From positions 1 through 64,000 of the forward strand of contig CAMDBI010000007.1 in the NCBI GenBank assembly GCA_945889005.1: a stretch of DNA of 64,000 bases, read 5' to 3'. How positions within the stretch are numbered: the stretch's first letter is position 1; the number at the start of each line of letters is the position of its first letter. This DNA comes from Bacteroides fragilis (GTDB taxonomy: Bacteria; Bacteroidota; Bacteroidia; Bacteroidales; DTGW01). This document shows, piece by piece, positions 12,662 through 38,354 of the stretch. A program made the position numbers and the translations under genes. The notes under the pieces were generated by a model, which was not told the DNA's origin, made no database searches, and saw only the letters and a list, made by a program, of their open reading frames with translations.

Positions 12662-13121
12662 TTATTTGCGATTTTAGTTATTAACGACAAACGTACATTA
12701 ATATTATTCAATATGCAAAGCGTAGTTCAAGATTGTGTTTGTATTGTATGTTTTCAAAGTCAGTGTAAATAGGCCTTAAGTGTTCATTTTGACAAATTAC
12801 TCACCAAGATTAGTAATTTTACTCAATATATATAGTAGTTATGCTCATTTAAAAAAGTAAAATTACTCAGTTGTTCTTTTGTAATAACTAAATGGGTTGA
12901 GTAAAATACATAAGTAATATTAGTTAAAATGCTAATTATAGCTATTAAAATAACTAAATATAATGAGTAGAATTAATAATAATAACTAGTAATAAAGCTC
13001 ATTATAATTAGTTGTTTTAATCATTATATAAGGTTAATTTACTAGATATTATTATATAAATTACTAATTATCTCTAGTAAAAAACATCTAAATATTTAGT
13101 TAAAATACTAACTATGATTAG

Positions 13122-13129
13122 TATATTTG
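13122..13129 (+). promoter_or_regulatory. Putative -7 box of the DUF4143 ATPase gene
   Basis: TATATTTG matches the Bacteroidota -7 consensus and lies 51 bp before the ATG. The -33 region is not distinctive. Confidence 0.5.
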
Positions 13130-13139
13130 CATTATATAT

Positions 13140-13164
13140 TTAGTATAATAAATTATTATACTAA
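13140..13164. promoter_or_regulatory. Perfect inverted repeat, possible operator
   Basis: TTAGTATAAT (13140-13149) and its exact complement ATTATACTAA (13155-13164) are separated by 5 bp. The site lies about 10 bp downstream of the predicted -7 box and 15 bp before the ATG, a position where a bound dimer would block transcription. The half-site contains the same TTAGT word that is scattered through the region upstream. Confidence 0.55.
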
Positions 13165-13179
13165 GTGAAATAACTTAAT

Positions 13180-14376
13180 ATGCTTACTAATATGTATGAG
13201 CGAAAAGAATTGCAGCTAATAATTAAACGAATCAGAGAGCCTAGAAAGTTCATTCAGACACTTCTTGGACCACGTCAGGTCGGAAAAACAACATTAATTC
13301 GTCAAGCAATAAATTCAGTTAATACTCCTTGGATTTATACTACTGCCGACGAAAAAGTAAATGCTGATGAGACTTGGCTTAGGCAGCAATGGGAAATGGC
13401 TCGAATGAGACTTAAGAACTCTGAGGAAGATGAATTGTTGCTTATAATTGACGAAATTCAGAAAGTCGATGATTGGAGCAGTATTGTAAAGTCGTTGTGG
13501 GACGACGATACTTTTAATCTGCGAAATTTGAAAGTTATATTATCTGGTTCTGCAAGATTGCTTTTGCAAAAAGGACTTACCGAGTCGATGGCTGGAAGGT
13601 TCGAGATTATACATATTATGCATTGGAATTACACAGAAATGAAGAATGCATTTGGTATTTCTGCTAACGAATATGTTTGGTATGGCGGATACCCTGGTGC
13701 CATTGGACTAGTGAGTGAGTATAAGCGATGGGTCGATTATATTGTCAACTCCATGGCCGAATCGACCATTTCGAAAGACATACTTATGCTTACCCGTATT
13801 GATAAACCAGCCTTGTTGAGAAGATTATTTGAGCTTGGTTGTGCATATTCAGGTCAAATACTTTCGCTTACAAAAGTATTAGGGCAGTTGCAAGATGCGG
13901 GCAATACTGTTACACTGGCTCATTATTTGCAATTGCTCGATTCGGCGGGTATACTTGCCGGTCTCGACAAATTTGCTGGCCAACAAATGCGTTCTCGTGC
14001 TTCGGTGCCTAAATTTCAGGTATATAACTCGGCATATATGAGTGCTTATTCCGGTATTACATTAGATGTGGCTATGAGCAATCCCGATATTTGGGGTCGA
14101 CATGTTGAATCTGCTATTGGTGCATATTTGTTAAATGCTGCAAAAATCAATAATATGGAAGTGTATTATTGGCGAGAGCGCGACAAAGAGGTCGATTATA
14201 TTGTAAAATATAATAATAAAATTGTTGCTTTGGAGGTTAAAAGTGGTGCACGAAAAGCTATTTCCGGGGTAAAAGCGTTTGACGAGCAGTTTAAGCCCGA
14301 GAAGTCGTTTGTCGTTGGAACGGGTGGTTTCCCATGGTCAGAGTTTCTTGAGATTAATCCAACTGATTTGTTTTAA
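13180..14376 (+). CDS. AAA-type ATPase with DUF4143 domain
   Basis: A 398-residue protein of the archaeal-type AAA_14/DUF4143 family. Walker A is GPRQVGKT at 30-38, Walker B is LLLIIDE ending at Asp91-Glu92, and an ILSGSA sensor motif follows. The C-terminal DUF4143 part ends with a restriction-endonuclease-like stretch, EVDYIVKYNNKIVALEVKSG (about 350-370), whose D...ExK pattern is that of PD-(D/E)XK folds. The family is widespread and patchy in bacteria and archaea, and its function is unknown. The gene stands alone, behind an unusual AT-rich region, which fits horizontal acquisition. Confidence 0.88.
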   Translation: MLTNMYERKELQLIIKRIREPRKFIQTLLGPRQVGKTTLIRQAINSVNTPWIYTTADEKVNADETWLRQQWEMARMRLKNSEEDELLLIIDEIQKVDDWSSIVKSLWDDDTFNLRNLKVILSGSARLLLQKGLTESMAGRFEIIHIMHWNYTEMKNAFGISANEYVWYGGYPGAIGLVSEYKRWVDYIVNSMAESTISKDILMLTRIDKPALLRRLFELGCAYSGQILSLTKVLGQLQDAGNTVTLAHYLQLLDSAGILAGLDKFAGQQMRSRASVPKFQVYNSAYMSAYSGITLDVAMSNPDIWGRHVESAIGAYLLNAAKINNMEVYYWRERDKEVDYIVKYNNKIVALEVKSGARKAISGVKAFDEQFKPEKSFVVGTGGFPWSEFLEINPTDLF

Positions 14377-31164: not shown

Positions 31165-33861
31165 TCATTTCAATTCTTTCAATCGTTCTTGTAACGAGGT
31201 TATTTTTGCTTGGGCATCGGCTTGTTTTTTGCGTTCATTGTCGACTACTTGAGCAGGGGCACTGCCTACAAACTTCTCGTTGCTGAGTTTTTTCAATACC
31301 GATTCCAAAAAGCCTTGTTGGTACTTGAGCTCTTCGGTTATTTTGGTTTTCTCGGCTTCAACATCAAGCAGTCCGCCTAGCTGTACGAAGTATTCGTCGG
31401 TTTTGACCATAAACGATACCGAGCCCTCGATCTTTGATGTTGTATGTGCCAACGAAGAAAGGTTCGCCATTTTCTTCAATACAGGCTCGAACTGCTTGCT
31501 GTATTCTTTGTTTTCGGCTTTAATATATAGCTCCAATTGCTCTTTGTTGGCAATGCCTTTTTCCTGGCGGATATTGCGCACCTGGGCAATGGCTTCTTTG
31601 GTGTTTTCGAACGAAACGATGAGCTTATCGTCAATTTTGCCAGCAATAGGCATACGATTGATCATGATGCTTTCGCCCTGCTTGCGTTCGGCCAAAAGTT
31701 GCCATATTTCTTCGGTGATAAAAGGCGTGAATGGGTGCAAGAGGTGCATGAGTTTGTCGAAAAAGCCCAATGTAGCATCGAGCGTGAGCTTGTCGATGGG
31801 TTTTTGATATTCGGGTTTTACAATTTCGAGGTACCAAGCCGAGAACTCGTCCCAGAAGAGTTTGTACACGGTCATAAGGGCTTCCGAAAGGCGGTACTTC
31901 GAAAAGTGATCGTCAATTTCGGCTATCGATTTGTTCAGTTGGTTTTCGAACCACTCGATGCCCAAACTGGCGTACTCAGGTTGAGGTATCGATGGGTCGA
32001 CCTGCCAACCTTTTACCAAGCGGAAGGCATTCCATATTTTGTTTCCAAAGTTACGTCCCTGTTCGGTAAGAGCTTCGTCGAATGGCAAATCGTTTCCGGC
32101 AGGCGAGCACAGAAGCATGCCAACACGTACGCCATCGGCGCCGTACTGTTCGATGAGCTTGAGGCAGTCGGGCGAGTTGCCGAGCGATTTGGACATTTTG
32201 CGTCCAAGCTTGTCGCGAACAATGCCGGTGAGGTATACATTTTTAAAGGGCATTTCTTTTTCGTATTCGTAGCCGGCAATAATCATACGTGCTACCCAGA
32301 AGAATAAGATTTCGGGAGCAGTTACCAGGTCGTCGGTAGGGTAGTAGTAGTCGATTTCGGGGTTTCGGGGATTGCGTATGCCGTCGAATACCGATATGGG
32401 CCACAACCACGACGAGAACCATGTGTCGAGCACATCGTCGTCTTGTCGAAGGTCGGCAATGCTTAGGTTTTTGCCGGTCTTTTGCTGTGCCATGGCGAGT
32501 GCTTCGGCTTCGGTATTGGCTACCACGTATTCGTTGGTGTCGCCAATGTAGTAGGCTGGTATGCGATGTCCCCAATAGAGTTGGCGCGAAATGCACCAGT
32601 CTTTAACGTTTTCCATCCAGTGTCGGTAGGTGTTCTTGAACTTTGCCGGATGCAGTGTAATGTTGTCGTTCATTACATTTTCGAGGGCAGGTTCCGAAAG
32701 TTTTTTCATACGGAGAAACCACTGCATCGATAGTTTTGGTTCGATTACGGCATTGGTGCGCTCCGAATAACCTACTTTGTTGGTGTATTCTTCTATTTTG
32801 GCTATTTGATCGAGCTTTTTGAGGTCGGCAACTATTTTTTCGCGAACGGCGAAACGGTCTTCGCCCACATAAAGAAGGGCTTTTTCGTTGAGTGTGCCAT
32901 TGTCGTTAAAAATATCGATGGTGGGGAGCTTGTATTTCTGTCCCAGTTCGTAGTCGGCAAGGTCGTGAGCAGGAGTAATCTTGAGCACACCGGTACCAAA
33001 CTCGCGGTCGACATAAGGGTCGAAAATAATCGGCACTTCGCGGTCGATAAGGGGTACATAAACCTTGCAGCCTTTTAGGTGGCTATAGCGCTCGTCGTCG
33101 GGGTGCACGCACACTGCTGTATCGCCCAGTATGGTTTCGGGACGGGTGGTGGCAATGGTTAGGTAGTGGGCCGTTTCTCGTGAACCGTGGACAGTTTCTC
33201 GTGAACCGTGGACCGTGGGTTGTGAACCGTGAACCGTGTCGGAGGGAACGATTTTGTAGCGAACATGGTAGAGTTTCGAGTTTACCTCTTTGTAGTTTAC
33301 TTCTTCGTCCGATACGGCTGTGAGAGCCACGGGATCCCAGTTGACCATACGAACGCCACGGTATATTTGTTCTTTTTTATATAGGTCGACAAACACGTTG
33401 ATAACACTTTCGGAGCGTTCGGGATCCATGGTAAAGCAGGTACGATCCCAGTCGCACGACGATCCTAGTTTTTTGAGCTGTTCGAGTATAATGCCGCCGT
33501 GTTTGTGTGTCCATTCCCAGGCATGTTCCAAAAATTGGTCGCGGGTAAGGTCACGTTTGTTGATGCCTTCGGCAGCCAATTTGGCAACTACTCGTGCTTC
33601 GGTGGCAATAGATGCATGATCGGTGCCGGGAACCCAGCAGGCATTGAAGCCAAGCATACGGGCACGGCGAACAAGTACATCTTGTATGGTATTGTTGAGC
33701 ATGTGACCCATGTGTAGCACTCCGGTAACGTTGGGCGGAGGTATTACTATCGTGTAAGGTATGCGACCATCGGGCTCTGAGTGAAAAAAACGCTGATCGA
33801 GCCAGTATTGATACCATTTGCTTTCGGTTAGTTGAGGATCGTACTTCGAAGGAATTTCCAT
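31165..33861 (-). CDS. valS: Valyl-tRNA synthetase
   Basis: An 898-residue class I synthetase. The HIGH-type motif is HMGH in [16 protein letters not shown] (about 41-56) and the KMSKS motif is [11 protein letters not shown] (about 553). The CP1 editing domain (about 200-345) has [13 protein letters not shown]. The anticodon-binding domain and a C-terminal coiled coil (about 835-898) complete it. At about residues 207-231 it carries an extra loop of three near-identical seven-residue units ([21 protein letters not shown]) coming from a DNA tandem repeat, placed in a loop that varies in length in the family. The enzyme should remain functional. Confidence 0.95.
33166..33242. repeat. 21-bp tandem repeat inside valS
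   Basis: Three 21-bp units plus a partial one occur at 33166-33242, each beginning with GTGAACCGTG on the plus strand. They keep the valS frame and encode repeats of TVHGS in the N-terminal part of the editing domain. GTGAACCGTGAACCGTG-type repeats are otherwise intergenic in many genomes. Confidence 0.8.
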
Positions 33862-33903: not shown

Positions 33904-34369
33904 AATATTTAAACACAGAGACACGATGACACGGAGGGCAAAATTGTATTTTATCAATGCCTCTCTGTCCTGATCATTAGTTATGCGTGAACCCCTTTAG
34001 ATATAGCATTTGCAAAAATTGGTTGCTTGCCCCTTAAGGTTGAAAGCTCGTTTTGGCTTATAATGTGGGCGTCTGTAATAATATTGTATTTTAAATCAAT
34101 TTCGTAGCACCAATCAGATATTTCTCGTTCTTTTTTCCAATCGACTTTTTGTTTTAATACAATTAAAATATCGTAATCCGAGTCTTTTTGATGATTGCCA
34201 ACTGAACGAGAGCCAAATAATACAATGTCTTGAAGATTGTCAGATAGTTTTGACGAAAGTAATGCAATCAAATCGCTTAAAATCTGTCGATTTTTAGTTC
34301 TCATTTAATCGAAATTTATTCACGAAGGAAAACTTTTATTTTCTTACAATATTTATACATAGATACACG
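33904..34369. repeat. Direct repeats flanking the MNT gene
   Basis: The 22-bp segments at 33904-33925 and 34348-34369 agree at 19 positions (shared core AATATTTA...ACA...AGA...ACACG), and ACACGGAGGG also recurs at 33929-33938 and 34365-34374. They lie on either side of the small nucleotidyltransferase gene and could be traces of insertion, or two copies of a dispersed repeat. Confidence 0.55.
33981..34304 (-). CDS. MNT-type nucleotidyltransferase protein
   Basis: A 107-residue minimal nucleotidyltransferase. The fold signature is LFGSRSVGNHQKDSDYDILIVL, with GSRSVG at 31-36 and the metal-binding Asp43 and Asp45. Such proteins usually form pairs with HEPN proteins, the MNT adenylylating the HEPN RNase as an antitoxin. 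No HEPN gene is present on either side, so it is an orphan or a remnant. Direct repeats flank it. Confidence 0.82.
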   Translation of the reverse strand: MRTKNRQILSDLIALLSSKLSDNLQDIVLFGSRSVGNHQKDSDYDILIVLKQKVDWKKEREISDWCYEIDLKYNIITDAHIISQNELSTLRGKQPIFANAISKGVHA

Positions 34370-34511
34370 GAGGGTTAAAAATGAAGTTAATCAAACTCTG
34401 AGTAGTCGTGTTTAAGTGTTTAAAAAGATTAAGTCATATTTTGTATTTTTCCAATTATTTTTTTAAGTTTGTTTTAGAGTTTTTTATATTAATCATATAA
34501 CCATTAAAACC

Positions 34512-34988
34512 ATGGAAAACAAAATTTCGTTGGACATAGCGTCCGACACCCTTCAATCGGTAAAAGCTTCGATCGCGAGCATTAAGCAAAACCTGCCTTT
34601 TTTACTATCGCTAACACCCGACGATAGGCAAAGTATGCCCAAGATGGGCGACAAAACATTTGCGTTTGTCAAAAAATCGTACGAGTATGCAACCCAAAAC
34701 CCCGAATTGGTGCCATCGTATGTCGATATTGAAGAAATGCGCAAGGATGTGGAAACCGTCGAAAAGCTACAAAGTGTATACATGTTGTTGAACGAACTGC
34801 ACTCGAAGCTCGACGATACCATGATGATAGCCGGTAGCGAAGCTTATGTTGCCTCGCTCTCGTTTTACGGTGCTGTAAAAGAAGCTGCCAAAAAGAACGT
34901 GGGAGCAGCCAAGCCCATTGTCGAAGATCTGTCGGCGCGTTTTGTAAAAGGACGGTCGAAAGTAGAAACTGCAGCCAAGGCTCAGTAA
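34512..34988 (+). CDS. Conserved hypothetical protein, 158 aa
   Basis: A helical, soluble protein of 158 residues with no signal peptide or membrane segment. Its N-terminal part (SLDIASDTLQSVKASIASIKQNLPFLLSLTPDDRQS across 6-42) and the following helices (TFAFVKKSYEYATQNPELVPSYV) resemble a family of hypothetical proteins found in Bacteroidota, but I cannot name a function. It is transcribed alone and ends in a strong terminator at 35018-35044, beyond which a ten-unit tandem repeat begins. The codon use looks like that of its neighbours. Confidence 0.75.
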   Translation: MENKISLDIASDTLQSVKASIASIKQNLPFLLSLTPDDRQSMPKMGDKTFAFVKKSYEYATQNPELVPSYVDIEEMRKDVETVEKLQSVYMLLNELHSKLDDTMMIAGSEAYVASLSFYGAVKEAAKKNVGAAKPIVEDLSARFVKGRSKVETAAKAQ

Positions 34989-35017
34989 GCTCCGAGAAAA
35001 GATTTTTTACAAGCAAC

Positions 35018-35044
35018 AAAAAAGACCCTAATAAGGTCTTTTTT
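35018..35044 (+). terminator. Rho-independent terminator
   Basis: AAAAAAGACC (35018-35027) and GGTCTTTTTT (35035-35044) form a perfect 10-bp stem with a 7-base loop and a terminal T run, 30 bp after the conserved hypothetical gene. Confidence 0.85.
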
Positions 35045-35083
35045 GCTTTTTGCTCGATGCTTGTCGTTAAAAAAACCTCCATT

Positions 35084-35293
35084 GAAGCTTTTACCGACAA
35101 CAATGAAGTTATTTGCTTCGACAATGTAGCTTTTTGCAACAACAATGGAGCAAAAAGCTTCGCAGTTTAAGTTATTTGCTCCGTTGTGGGAGCTTTTAAC
35201 TCGGCTGTCGAAGCTTTTAACTTCGATAGCCGAGTTTTTTGCTTAGACGATGGGACTTTTAGAGTCGCTGGCGAAGATGTTTTAGAGAGTGTT
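35084..35293. repeat. Ten-unit degenerate 21-bp tandem array
   Basis: Ten consecutive 21-bp units start at 35084, 35105, 35126, 35147, 35168, 35189, 35210, 35231, 35252 and 35273. Most begin GAAG or GGAG followed by CTTTT or TTATTTGC and then a CTTCGACAA-like tail; for instance unit 7 begins GAAGCTTTTAACTTCG and unit 6 GGAGCTTTTAACTCGG. The period is exact and a multiple of three, while the bases have diverged, which fits an old array, possibly from a seven-residue coding repeat. One frame is broken by TAA in unit 5. Confidence 0.85.
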
Positions 35294-35320
35294 AAGCAAA
35301 TAGGGTGATTTTTAGTTTTT

Positions 35321-36589
35321 TTACTTGAAGATTTCAGCATTTTCAGGCTGAATTTTATAAAATCTGATTATGTCATTTTTCCCCAGTTTTCTCTTATCTA
35401 AAGCTTTATCTAGTTCATCTCTTAAAGCATATAGTAAAGTTTGAATATTCTCCTTAGTATGATAATTGCATATCATTATTCTTATACCTGAATTGTTTGC
35501 AGGTACAGCTGGAAAATGAGTTACGCACATGTATATTGAACGTTTAAGTAAGCCATAGTTAATTTCATTTGTTATTTCCGGTGTTGAACCAGGAAATAAA
35601 AAAACAGGAGAATACGTATCTCCAATGATTGGGACTTGCAGTTCGTGAGCTAATTCAATAAAATATTGAATTTTCTCACGCAAATCGGCTTGTCGGGTAT
35701 AGATTTCGTTTGTGAGGTGTATTTTTGCGGATGCAATGATTGCACCTAATGTTGGAGGCGCAATAGGAGAGCTGAAAGTAAGAGGGGGAGCACATACTTC
35801 GCAACGCAATTTGGTTCTCTCATCGTAAAATACAGCAACACCTCCTCCTGCTCCAAATCCTTTGCCCAAAGAAGTAATTAATGTGATTTGCGGATGATAC
35901 CCGATTTTGTCTGGTGCAAATCCACGACCATTTTCTCCTGTCCAGCTTATACCATGCGAGTCGTCAATATATAAATGAAATTGGGGGTATTTTTTTATTA
36001 GAGCCATTAAGTCAACAAATGGGAATGAGTCGCCAAACATAGAATATACACTATCGGCTAAGTACCATATTTTTTTATATTTGATTGACAATTCTTTTAT
36101 TTTATCTTCTATAATGCCAATATGGTTGTGTTTAATTACTTCTACAGATATTCCATTGACCTTTAGGCTGTCTGTAGCCAATTTTATGCTTGCATGGGCA
36201 TGGTGGTCAACCAGTATTGCATCGTCTGAGTTTATTATTACAGGCAAAATTCCCGTATGAGCAATTGTGGTTCTCGAAAATAATAGACATGGCTTGCCAA
36301 ACATGTTTGATAGTTGTTCTTCTGCTTCTTGATATTTGTCTATTTTAATAAATACTTTTGAAACTGATGAATAAGCTCCGTGCTTTTTGATAGCATCAAT
36401 TGCGCCTTGTTTAACTCTTTTGTCTTGGGTAAGTCCTAAGTAGTCGTTTAAGCAAAAGTTTAAATATTTTTTTTTATTTATTGTAAAATAGTTTGAAGAG
36501 AGCCCTTGTTTATCTGTTGTTAGTAAACCCATTCCTAAATCGGCAGAGCTTTTAAAAGTCTGAAATACTGAATCGTAAATGTTTTTCAT
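35321..36589 (-). CDS. Alpha-oxoamine synthase-like PLP enzyme
   Basis: A 422-residue fold-type I PLP enzyme of the KBL/BioF/serine palmitoyltransferase family. Visible are NFCLNDYLGLTQ, HHAHASI (ring-stacking His), ADSVYSMFGD, the cofactor-binding IDDSHGISWTGENGRG and the Schiff-base lysine in ITSLGKGFGAGGG. Members condense an amino acid with an acyl-CoA, giving ketosphinganine, KAPA or 2-amino-3-ketobutyrate. The SLGKGFGAGGG motif differs from the usual SKAFG form, and no biotin, threonine or sphingolipid gene is adjacent. Ketosphinganine synthesis is one option in this phylum, but the substrate is undecided. Confidence 0.8.
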   Translation of the reverse strand: MKNIYDSVFQTFKSSADLGMGLLTTDKQGLSSNYFTINKKKYLNFCLNDYLGLTQDKRVKQGAIDAIKKHGAYSSVSKVFIKIDKYQEAEEQLSNMFGKPCLLFSRTTIAHTGILPVIINSDDAILVDHHAHASIKLATDSLKVNGISVEVIKHNHIGIIEDKIKELSIKYKKIWYLADSVYSMFGDSFPFVDLMALIKKYPQFHLYIDDSHGISWTGENGRGFAPDKIGYHPQITLITSLGKGFGAGGGVAVFYDERTKLRCEVCAPPLTFSSPIAPPTLGAIIASAKIHLTNEIYTRQADLREKIQYFIELAHELQVPIIGDTYSPVFLFPGSTPEITNEINYGLLKRSIYMCVTHFPAVPANNSGIRIMICNYHTKENIQTLLYALRDELDKALDKRKLGKNDIIRFYKIQPENAEIFK

Positions 36590-36671
36590 TTTTTTTAGTT
36601 AATTAGTTATGTATTTATAATAATTATTTTAAAAATTAATCTAAATTTATTATTATAAATATAACTTTTGT

Positions 36672-38354
36672 ATGGGAGTTTTGAACAGGTTGTTAACAAA
36701 GATGTTTCGCAATAAAAGTGATTATAGTTTTGAGGAGAATTTTCTTATAACATGTATTATATTTTCATGGGCAGTTGTGTTTTTTTCGATTTTTACTAAT
36801 TATTATGCCCAACTAACAATTTCAATTTATATTATTTCACTTATCTTTTATTCGTTAAATTTTTTTTTAACTCGTTTTCGTAAATATTTATTATTAGCAA
36901 AATACATTTTTAGCATATATACATTATTATTTTGTAACTTTTATTGGTACTACAACTATGGTTCAAGTGGAAATGCAATATACTTGTTTATTATTTATTT
37001 CGCTTTTATGGTTTTTATTTGGGAAAAGAAAATATTAAGAACGATTATAGCTGCTATTTTTATTAATATCGTTCTATTGTTTGCTATAGAAATTACATTT
37101 CCCGATTTTTTGCCTGTTTATCCATCGCACGAATTAAGAATTGTAGATAGTTATTTAACTTTAATTATTTACTTGTGTATTATGTCTTTATTGGTAGTTG
37201 CAGCAAAAAATAATTATTTGCGTGAATATGCTAAGGCTCAACAAGCCGACCGTCTCAAATCGGCGTTTCTCGAAAATATGTCGCACGAAATTAGAACCCC
37301 GATGAATGCTATTGTGGGTTTTTCGGAACTAATTCAACGCAACAAAGTGACCGACGAGAAAAAGAATGCCTATGCCTCTATTATTAAAGACAATTCGCTT
37401 CAATTGCTAAGTTTGCTCAACGACATACTCGATGTGTCGAAACTCGAAGCAAAAATGGTAAAAGTCGATGAGCAAGATTGCAACATCGACGAGTTTATGA
37501 AACATGTTTTCGTGCAATTTCAGAAAACGATAACCAAAAACAACTTGGGCGAAAAAATAGAATTGATCTATAAAAAACACGATACCAACTTTATATTTAA
37601 AACCGACACCAAGCGTTTGCTTCAAATAATCGGGAAACTTATAGATAATGGTATCAAATATACCAACAATGGTAGCGTGGAGTTTGGCTATGATCTTGGT
37701 GAGCAAAACTTCATTACCTTTTATGTAAAAGATGCCGGTATAGGAATTAACAAAGACTACCACAGCTTGTTGTTTCAGAGTTTCAATAAATTTGAAGCCG
37801 ACAAGAAAAAAGAACTTCACCGGGGCACGGGCATAGGCTTGTATATGGCACGTTTGTTGGTCGAATTGCTTGGCGGGCGCATTTGGTTTACGTCGGAAGT
37901 TAATGTGGGGTCAACTTTTTACTTTAGTATTCCGGCTAGGAATTTTGTACACGTTGTAAAAGAGCGAAAACAAAAAGTTGAGGTTCAGAAGAAATGGGAT
38001 AGTTTCAATATTCTTATAGTCGAAGACGACGATACCAGTTTTGTGTATTTAAAGGAACTGCTTTCGATTACAGGTATAAATATTGTAAGGGCCGAAGATG
38101 GAGTCGAAGCACAAGATAAAATTAATGGCAATTACAATGCCATATTGATGGACGTTAATATGCCAAGAGGCAATGGTTACGATCTGATTAAACAAATTAG
38201 AGAAAAAGATACCAAAGTGCCAATAATCGTTCAAACATCGTATGTATATCAAGATATCCCTGTTGAAATGAGAGCAGCTTTTGATTATTTTCTGCCAAAA
38301 CCTGTCGAATCGGCTAGGCTCATGGAAATGCTCGAAAAGCATTTGGTGTGCTAG
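36672..38354 (+). CDS. Hybrid sensor histidine kinase
   Basis: A 560-residue membrane kinase with an attached receiver. About six membrane segments (25-178) form an integral sensor without a large extracytoplasmic domain. HisKA has the phosphoaccepting His205 in NMSHEIRTPMN, the HATPase domain (about 270-412) has IGKLIDNGIKYTN and GTGIGLYMARLL, and the receiver (445-560) has the acidic pocket EDDD, Asp494 in LMDVNMP and Lys543 in LPKPVE. No output domain or separate regulator gene is next to it. A truncated copy of its sensor region follows immediately. Confidence 0.92.
   Translation: MGVLNRLLTKMFRNKSDYSFEENFLITCIIFSWAVVFFSIFTNYYAQLTISIYIISLIFYSLNFFLTRFRKYLLLAKYIFSIYTLLFCNFYWYYNYGSSGNAIYLFIIYFAFMVFIWEKKILRTIIAAIFINIVLLFAIEITFPDFLPVYPSHELRIVDSYLTLIIYLCIMSLLVVAAKNNYLREYAKAQQADRLKSAFLENMSHEIRTPMNAIVGFSELIQRNKVTDEKKNAYASIIKDNSLQLLSLLNDILDVSKLEAKMVKVDEQDCNIDEFMKHVFVQFQKTITKNNLGEKIELIYKKHDTNFIFKTDTKRLLQIIGKLIDNGIKYTNNGSVEFGYDLGEQNFITFYVKDAGIGINKDYHSLLFQSFNKFEADKKKELHRGTGIGLYMARLLVELLGGRIWFTSEVNVGSTFYFSIPARNFVHVVKERKQKVEVQKKWDSFNILIVEDDDTSFVYLKELLSITGINIVRAEDGVEAQDKINGNYNAILMDVNMPRGNGYDLIKQIREKDTKVPIIVQTSYVYQDIPVEMRAAFDYFLPKPVESARLMEMLEKHLVC

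Follow-up and report, generated by a model that had tools for sequence, protein, structure and literature searches.

Genes of a protein family that we call F1 are followed, in the window (the whole stretch of 64,000 nucleotides that was analysed) and in other genomes of its order and phylum, by tandem arrays of diverged units that repeat every 21 or 22 bp, and the period of the array largely follows the clade of the protein. We consider it somewhat better than an even bet, with a probability of about 0.55, that F1 is a dimeric DNA-binding protein that acts on its own array. The association links many unexplained short-repeat arrays of the Bacteroidota to two uncharacterised protein families, F1 and a second family, F2, and it offers in F1 and its array a protein-DNA pair that can be tested directly.

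The F1 gene of the window and its array

The initial annotation had described a conserved gene, a terminator behind it and then ten divergent units of exactly 21 bp, and gene, hairpin and array are all as described. The locus consists of the following features.

34440 to 34471, plus strand: possible promoter of the F1 gene, TTTG-N20-TAAGTTTG, from a pattern match
34512 to 34988, plus strand: F1 gene, encoding a 158-aa, all-helical protein with a low-confidence C-terminal tail, from the open reading frame, its relatives and AlphaFold2
35017 to 35045, plus strand: terminator-like hairpin of 11 pairs and then a T-rich tail, separating the F1 gene from the array
35057 to 35295, no strand assigned: diverged 21-bp array with units in both orientations (ten clear units at 35083-35293), from a period scan, Tandem Repeats Finder and inverted-repeat analysis
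35198 to 35236, plus strand: terminator-like hairpin of 16 pairs within the array, from hairpin analysis

The ten units are in register and strongly diverged from each other. Their pairwise column identity is 0.512, whereas 2000 dinucleotide shuffles average 0.261 (sd 0.015) and never exceed 0.331, and the array matches itself at 0.52, 0.51 and 0.47 for lags of 21, 42 and 63 bp, with values of 0.18-0.31 at the other lags tested. Tandem Repeats Finder, suggested earlier as a check, does report period 21, but only for 35083-35151 and with a score of 68. At a score threshold of 0.50 the array extends over 35057-35295, which places its start somewhat 5' of 35083, near the terminator. At least one unit is inverted (35146-35166), units being present in both orientations, and several inverted repeats are found across the array. 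A search of the window's own genome did not reveal the unit a second time, the best other match having an E-value of 0.2, and a search of that genome with the unit pattern gave 21 matches (five of them inside the array itself) against 31 in a backward-read control, and therefore no excess. The promoter pattern, which represents the Bacteroidota promoter consensus, occurs 10 times in the window when 6.6 occurrences are expected by chance, so the promoter call is weak.

Could the array be what is left of an old coding repeat of seven residues, as was first proposed? Twenty-one is divisible by three, and one frame, reading EAFTDNN, EVICFDN and VAFCNNN, is open across four units. However, that frame then encounters a TAA at 35168, units are inverted, and arrays beside the F1 family that have a period of 22 bp cannot hold a reading frame. 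We attach virtually no credence to the coding repeat.

The F1 protein and its distribution

The AlphaFold2 model of F1 is all-helical (mean pLDDT 91.1), with helices at residues 11-27, 36-41, 47-62, 73-127 and 133-145 and a tail, 149-158, of low confidence. Searches with F1 gave nothing above the curated cut-off in Pfam and NCBIfam, no convincing match in PHROGs or in PADLOC (which covered three proteins), and a best match of E 0.11 among PDB sequences. Fold searches were equally unconvincing, with a best PDB E-value of 2.6 and a best viral library value of 0.86 in Foldseek, and a best Z of 4.8 over 53 residues in VIA-align, which the tool describes as common for helical models. No recognisable DNA-binding motif is present in F1, and when 72 relatives were scanned against Pfam (E <0.01), APP1_cat was touched by four and two other families by one each, which we take as chance. 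The absence of functional support from Pfam, NCBIfam, PHROG, PADLOC and PDB counts against binding of F1 to the array. No relative of F1 or F2 was found in viral contigs, and none of F1 in phage records. The F1 proteins of loci L037, L141, L142, L145 and L147 have about 235 aa, and their extra C-terminal stretches look alike by eye.

The distribution of F1 is patchy. With the window's own genome counted in each case, F1 is present in 6 of 60 relatives; it occurs in 44 of 393 genomes at the level of the order, where a single genome may carry as many as 10 copies, and in 31 of 395 at the level of the phylum. Named carriers, which come from 80 of 113 relatives, include among the matches listed Pedobacter, Solitalea, Labilibaculum, Marinifilum, Breznakibacter, Taibaiella and Tannerella; further carriers among the matches listed are metagenome bins labelled Spirochaetes, Verrucomicrobiaceae, Planctomycetaceae and other groups, a part of them perhaps mis-binned. 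A distant relative without an array is encoded on a plasmid of the gammaproteobacterium Candidatus Thiodictyon syntrophicum (L300, 3914-4381).

Arrays accompany F1 genes across genomes

Loci were chosen by F1 protein similarity alone, and the tandem structure downstream was then scored. An array was called when a period of 21 or 22 reached a score of at least 0.5 within 900 bp, at least 300 bases being available. The first set contains 93 loci, made up of 12 outside the window's own genome, 80 of the 112 order-wide places (those omitted being mostly weak or partial) and the window; the second contains 80 loci, of which five duplicates of first-set loci were dropped; and the third, fetched to test the prediction of an array, contains 20 of 51 phylum-wide places outside the own genome, all in other orders. 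Downstream arrays of period 21 or 22 were found at 56 of 91 loci in the first set and 59 of 71 in the second, and upstream arrays at 11 of 89 and 1 of 71, respectively. With the control periods 19, 20, 23 and 24, the downstream count falls to 1 of 91 and 0 of 71, and to none for F2. If instead the strongest period with a z of at least 8 is recorded for all 80 second-set loci (duplicates included, four being too short), it is 21 (35 loci) or 42 (31 loci) downstream of 66 of the 76 testable loci, the other ten having none, while upstream it is 42 in one of 77 and some other period in four. The strongest period was 21, 42 or 22 at 15 of the 20 third-set loci, the rest giving 15, 32, 43 and two loci without an array. 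Downstream of L351 the strongest period is 43, as if 21 and 22 alternate. The link between gene and array that the initial annotation suspected is strongly supported by the arrays beside relatives, and the outcome named there as refuting, absence of the array beside orthologs, is contradicted by arrays in other genomes.

The association is not universal. In the first set 35 of 91 loci, and in the second 12 of 71, have no array at the threshold, some of these loci being fragments, and the array of L102 sits nearly 900 bp or more downstream of its F1 gene. Nor do the flanking ORFs of 168 loci include a widely shared neighbour gene: the largest cluster, which resembles generic sensor kinases, is represented at 14 of 168 loci and the next at four.

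It might be argued that minisatellites are frequent in these genomes, that they are neutral, and that F1 is a bystander. In G197, the array-richest genome, a 400-kb sample without F1 genes (L150-L169) contains 18 stretches of period 21, 22 or 41-44, mostly behind or between ordinary genes and few of them sharing units with F1-linked arrays, and so many arrays away from F1 count against the pairing. Furthermore, 21-bp arrays occur in two of ten 20-kb samples of other F1-carrying genomes (L291 and L298, neither behind an ORF of at least 150 codons) and in none of ten samples of other genomes, and the window itself holds a second array, of period 22 (12765-13234), beside which no F1 gene was found. 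However, the base rate of downstream arrays at sampled genes (ORFs of at least 150 codons) is 0 of 108 in ten genomes without F1, 0 of 114 in ten genomes with F1, and 16 of 286 in G197, far from the rates at F1 in the first and second sets. Periods 21 and 22 are enriched whereas neighbouring periods are not, and both symmetry and period track protein family and clade, as described below. We regard the bystander explanation as very unlikely.

A second family, F2 (about 250 aa, with a start like MASTSETGHAKNVANF), was found at two of the 18 G197 array stretches, its genes being directly upstream of the array. It is present in 35 of 386 genomes of the order, and 24 of these 35 also carry F1, where chance would give about four. 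Within F2, one half is related to the other (hhalign 96.9), indicating an internal duplication, and no kinship between F1 and F2 was detected by hhalign (probability at most 0.2). A 21-bp array is found downstream of F2 in 18 of 22 loci and upstream in 0 of 23; of 30 F2 loci, four without an ORF and two with a wrong ORF (L264 and L271) were left out of the count of 18 of 22, although the arrays of L264 and L271 were kept in the symmetry test below. Together, the first set and F2 provide 88 arrays, 76 downstream and 12 upstream, L271 being counted as upstream only through its wrong ORF.

What the arrays conserve

Which properties of the arrays are shared between loci? In those of the 88 arrays that are longer than 140 bases, the averaged autocorrelation peaks at multiples of 21 (59 arrays) or 22 (11 arrays), with a slight elevation at neighbouring lags and nowhere else, and sub-periods of 7, 10.5 or 11 bp are on average absent. 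A single conserved motif across F1 arrays was considered and rejected: letters differ between loci and there is only a weak shared tendency, the similarity of units between arrays being 0.383 against about 0.374 with permuted columns for period 21 (50 arrays) and 0.391 against 0.37 for period 22 (15 arrays). Two-fold symmetry of the unit, expressed as a z relative to the same array with its columns permuted, exceeds 2 in 39 of 56 F1 arrays of the first set and 35 of 52 of the second (74 of 108), compared with 1 of 19 F2 arrays, when arrays of at least 130 bases are taken from the 67, 59 and 21 available, respectively. A first run of the symmetry test agreed with this.

An alternative is that the array acts as RNA, transcribed into a row of hairpins that would be bound by F1 and serve as a repeat-RNA antitoxin or scaffold. 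The region 34985-35310 of the window folds beyond shuffles on either strand (z of -5.5 and -8.7), as would be expected from any inverted repeat, some arrays seem to hold a terminator as a unit (L122 and L123), and F1 arrays are locally slightly more complementary than expected (0.027, positive in 42 of 56). Yet double changes that would preserve pairing within a unit are no more frequent than in shuffles (147 against 133.5, sd 10, and 127 against 151, sd 9.3), and symmetry of the units without an excess of compensatory change favours symmetric sites in double-stranded DNA over RNA hairpins. The RNA explanation is also difficult to reconcile with the asymmetric units of F2 arrays and with the terminator-like hairpin that splits gene from array at 18 of 56 first-set loci, the window included (none was found by rule at the other 38). 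No Rfam family reaches its gathering score in 34000-36700 of the window, where the Phe leader, at 32.8 bits against 55, and four other families stay below threshold. The initial annotation had offered a structured or protein-binding array; protein binding is our best reading of the array, and RNA structure seems to us quite unlikely.

The period of the array largely follows the F1 protein clade. In a tree of 122 F1 proteins with arrays, from which duplicates, fragments and rows holding X were left out, one clade of 20 rows (SH-aLRT 99) holds 13 of the 15 period-22 arrays, much of it coming from one genus so that the effective sample is smaller than the count, and outside this clade period 22 is found in 2 of 102. 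The tree requires 9 changes of period, compared with a shuffled mean of 14.4, and none of 500 shuffles was as low. When downstream arrays alone are considered, period 22 accounts for 9 of 11 in the period-22 clade. Both periods occur in, among other genomes, G197, G352, G321 and G373, by and large distributed according to clade. There are exceptions: inside the period-22 clade, L130 and L040 have a downstream array of period 21 and five more have one upstream, and outside it L141 and L129 have period 22. In the third set, L345 has period 22 yet its nearest proteins are of the period-21 kind, and L348 and L350, which are nearest to the period-22 clade, are without a downstream array.

A putative protein-DNA pair

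How might a protein be matched to the spacing of an array and to so little of its sequence? A spacing of two helical turns, symmetric units beside a one-domain protein, asymmetric units beside a duplicated protein, and a period that largely follows the protein clade together lead us to infer that F1 is a DNA-binding protein that acts as a dimer and reads the array in its double-stranded form. On this reading the small helical protein, probably in the form of a dimer with two-fold symmetry, would occupy the array units that lie downstream of its own gene. With one unit every 21 bp, or in one clade mostly every 22 bp, the spacing corresponds to two turns of B-DNA, so that bound dimers would all sit on the same side of the helix and could form a cooperative patch. 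Spacing and symmetry would be retained while the letters drift and are occasionally swapped as a block, the module of upstream stretch, gene and array could be duplicated at other locations, and gene-free arrays elsewhere may represent further F1 sites. A role of the patch in local organisation of the chromosome or in control of its own gene seems to us slightly more likely than a purely selfish one that serves the spread of the module.

Proposed copying and turnover of the gene-array module

In the paralogous loci L105 and L106 of G362, similarity covers the gene, the array and about 135 bp of upstream sequence, and the stretches compared beyond these do not match; the unit sequences of their arrays are partly different and the register is the same. 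Gene and array are also common to L102 and L103, L102 having extra intervening sequence, whereas L117 and L118 have the gene in common and not the array. L086 and L078 represent an orthologous locus in G282 and G197 with flanks that are 74-89% identical, and blastn found no match between their 22-bp arrays. Such unlike units at orthologous loci are hard to fit to strict sequence recognition and count against binding of the array by F1.

Units of F1-linked arrays also occur away from the gene: in each of the genomes G197, G352 and G221, one F1-linked array has such dispersed copies. The G282 unit is found in G197 at two other places without F1, the L093 unit of G352 recurs at three places without an F1 match, and the L075 unit recurs at G197 2429237-2429616 and at C13 of G282, beside the same gene in both species. 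When 17 array-only stretches were compared with linked arrays, most had no clear counterpart, or had one only among arrays that are themselves poorly defined; the clear matches, relative to a 99.9% chance level of 0.77, are L161 to L075 (0.96), L315 and L319 to L086 (0.86 and 0.85) and L167 to L071 (0.84). G006, where no F1 was found, retains an array that resembles those of other members of its genus. We did not find a site from which the module is cleanly missing: one flank of the G221 locus has a match, without F1, in G006, and the other flank was not located. In the light of block copying and of array-only copies, the pair seems to be a dispersed module.

A dispersed module could be a selfish one, similar to REP/RAYT systems, in which F1 spreads or amplifies the arrays as parasites, the F1-bearing copy being autonomous and the array-only copies its dependants. 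The up to 10 dispersed paralogs in a genome, the patchy distribution in the phylum, the L105/L106 block confined to upstream stretch, gene and array, and the array-only copies carrying the unit of an F1-linked array would all be in keeping with this. On the other hand, no similarity of F1 to a transposase or nuclease was found, neither terminal repeats nor target duplications are evident by eye at the L105/L106 borders, and an array-only copy whose position is shared by two species (L322 and L323) points to stable inheritance. A selfish system is unlikely in our estimation, though it is the alternative to which we give most weight.

The reading of F1 as a DNA-binding dimer can be extended to a broader one, which we put forward tentatively and at less than even odds. 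The protein family would dictate the repeat length and symmetry of the array and tolerate almost any letters, the sequence of the arrays would turn over with their two-turn period retained, the pair would spread as a unit and seed array-only sites, and F2 would have evolved the same arrangement with asymmetric units, the whole amounting to a bacterial satellite-DNA system. If F1 does set the spacing of the array, the pair would be a bacterial counterpart of eukaryotic satellite DNA and its binding proteins, and a new dispersed genomic module.

Relationship to known repeat systems

The nearest described array that we found is BrickBuilt, a 23-nt minisatellite MITE of Porphyromonas gingivalis with a leader and a tail that have inverted-repeat ends (PMC4596501). 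Like the F1 arrays, it consists of short tandem units without spacers, dispersed between genes in a Bacteroidota genome; it differs in its period of 23 rather than 21 or 22, and in that the portions of the report available to us describe no adjacent cognate protein family (PMC4596501). At the L105/L106 borders, a leader or tail with inverted-repeat ends is not evident by eye.

The nearest gene-plus-repeat system is that of REP/REPIN sequences and RAYT. RAYT is of the Y1/HUH transposase type. According to the available portions of two reports, the transposase-related RAYT gene (TnpA-REP) is linked to short palindromic repeats of which there are dispersed copies (PMC3116915, PMC8266576). The F1 pair is similar in having a gene-linked repeat and dispersed copies in the genome, although no second copy was found in the window's genome. 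No transposase similarity of F1 was found in Pfam, NCBIfam and PDB-sequence searches, its predicted fold is all-helical with no confident PDB match, and its repeats form long tandem arrays with a fixed period of 21 or 22 bp.

In iterons with their Rep proteins and in parS/ParB-type sites, direct repeats approximately two helical turns apart, beside the gene of the binding protein, place proteins on one face of the DNA. F1 arrays are similarly spaced by whole helical turns, 21 or 22 bp, with F1 as the putative bound protein. Unlike iterons and parS, F1 is found in many contexts, several times per genome and without a widely shared neighbour gene. Type III toxin-antitoxin systems of the ToxIN type pair the gene of a small protein with a row of short repeats, the array being upstream of a ToxN/AbiQ-type gene and giving rise to a processed RNA. 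The window locus resembles them in its small protein gene, its repeat row and the terminator-like hairpin between the two; it differs in that F1 arrays are downstream, in the window as in 76 of the 88 arrays, have a period of 21 or 22, and have no RNA covariation above shuffles. A ToxN/AbiQ-type protein was not detected by PADLOC in three proteins or as a fitting Pfam match in 72 relatives. No description of the F1-array pair was found in a literature search whose scope excluded most subscription journals and bioRxiv, and our view that the pair is new rests on this search and on the missing protein and fold matches.

Other features of the window

The second array of the window, at 12765-13234, is AT-rich and outscores the 21-bp array in a 210-base scan (near 12781-13051); downstream of it is an ORF (13180-14376) that by eye is ATPase-like. 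Near the F1 gene, a small nucleotidyltransferase gene at 33981-34304 matches Pfam Polbeta (1.8e-09) and, below cut-off, the NCBIfam MntA antitoxin (29.5 against 60 bits). On the minus strand, the gene at 31165-33861, by eye a valine tRNA synthetase, contains at 33166-33238 an in-frame 21-bp repeat, read as TVHGSRE repeats, that appears to be an insertion in this conserved enzyme.
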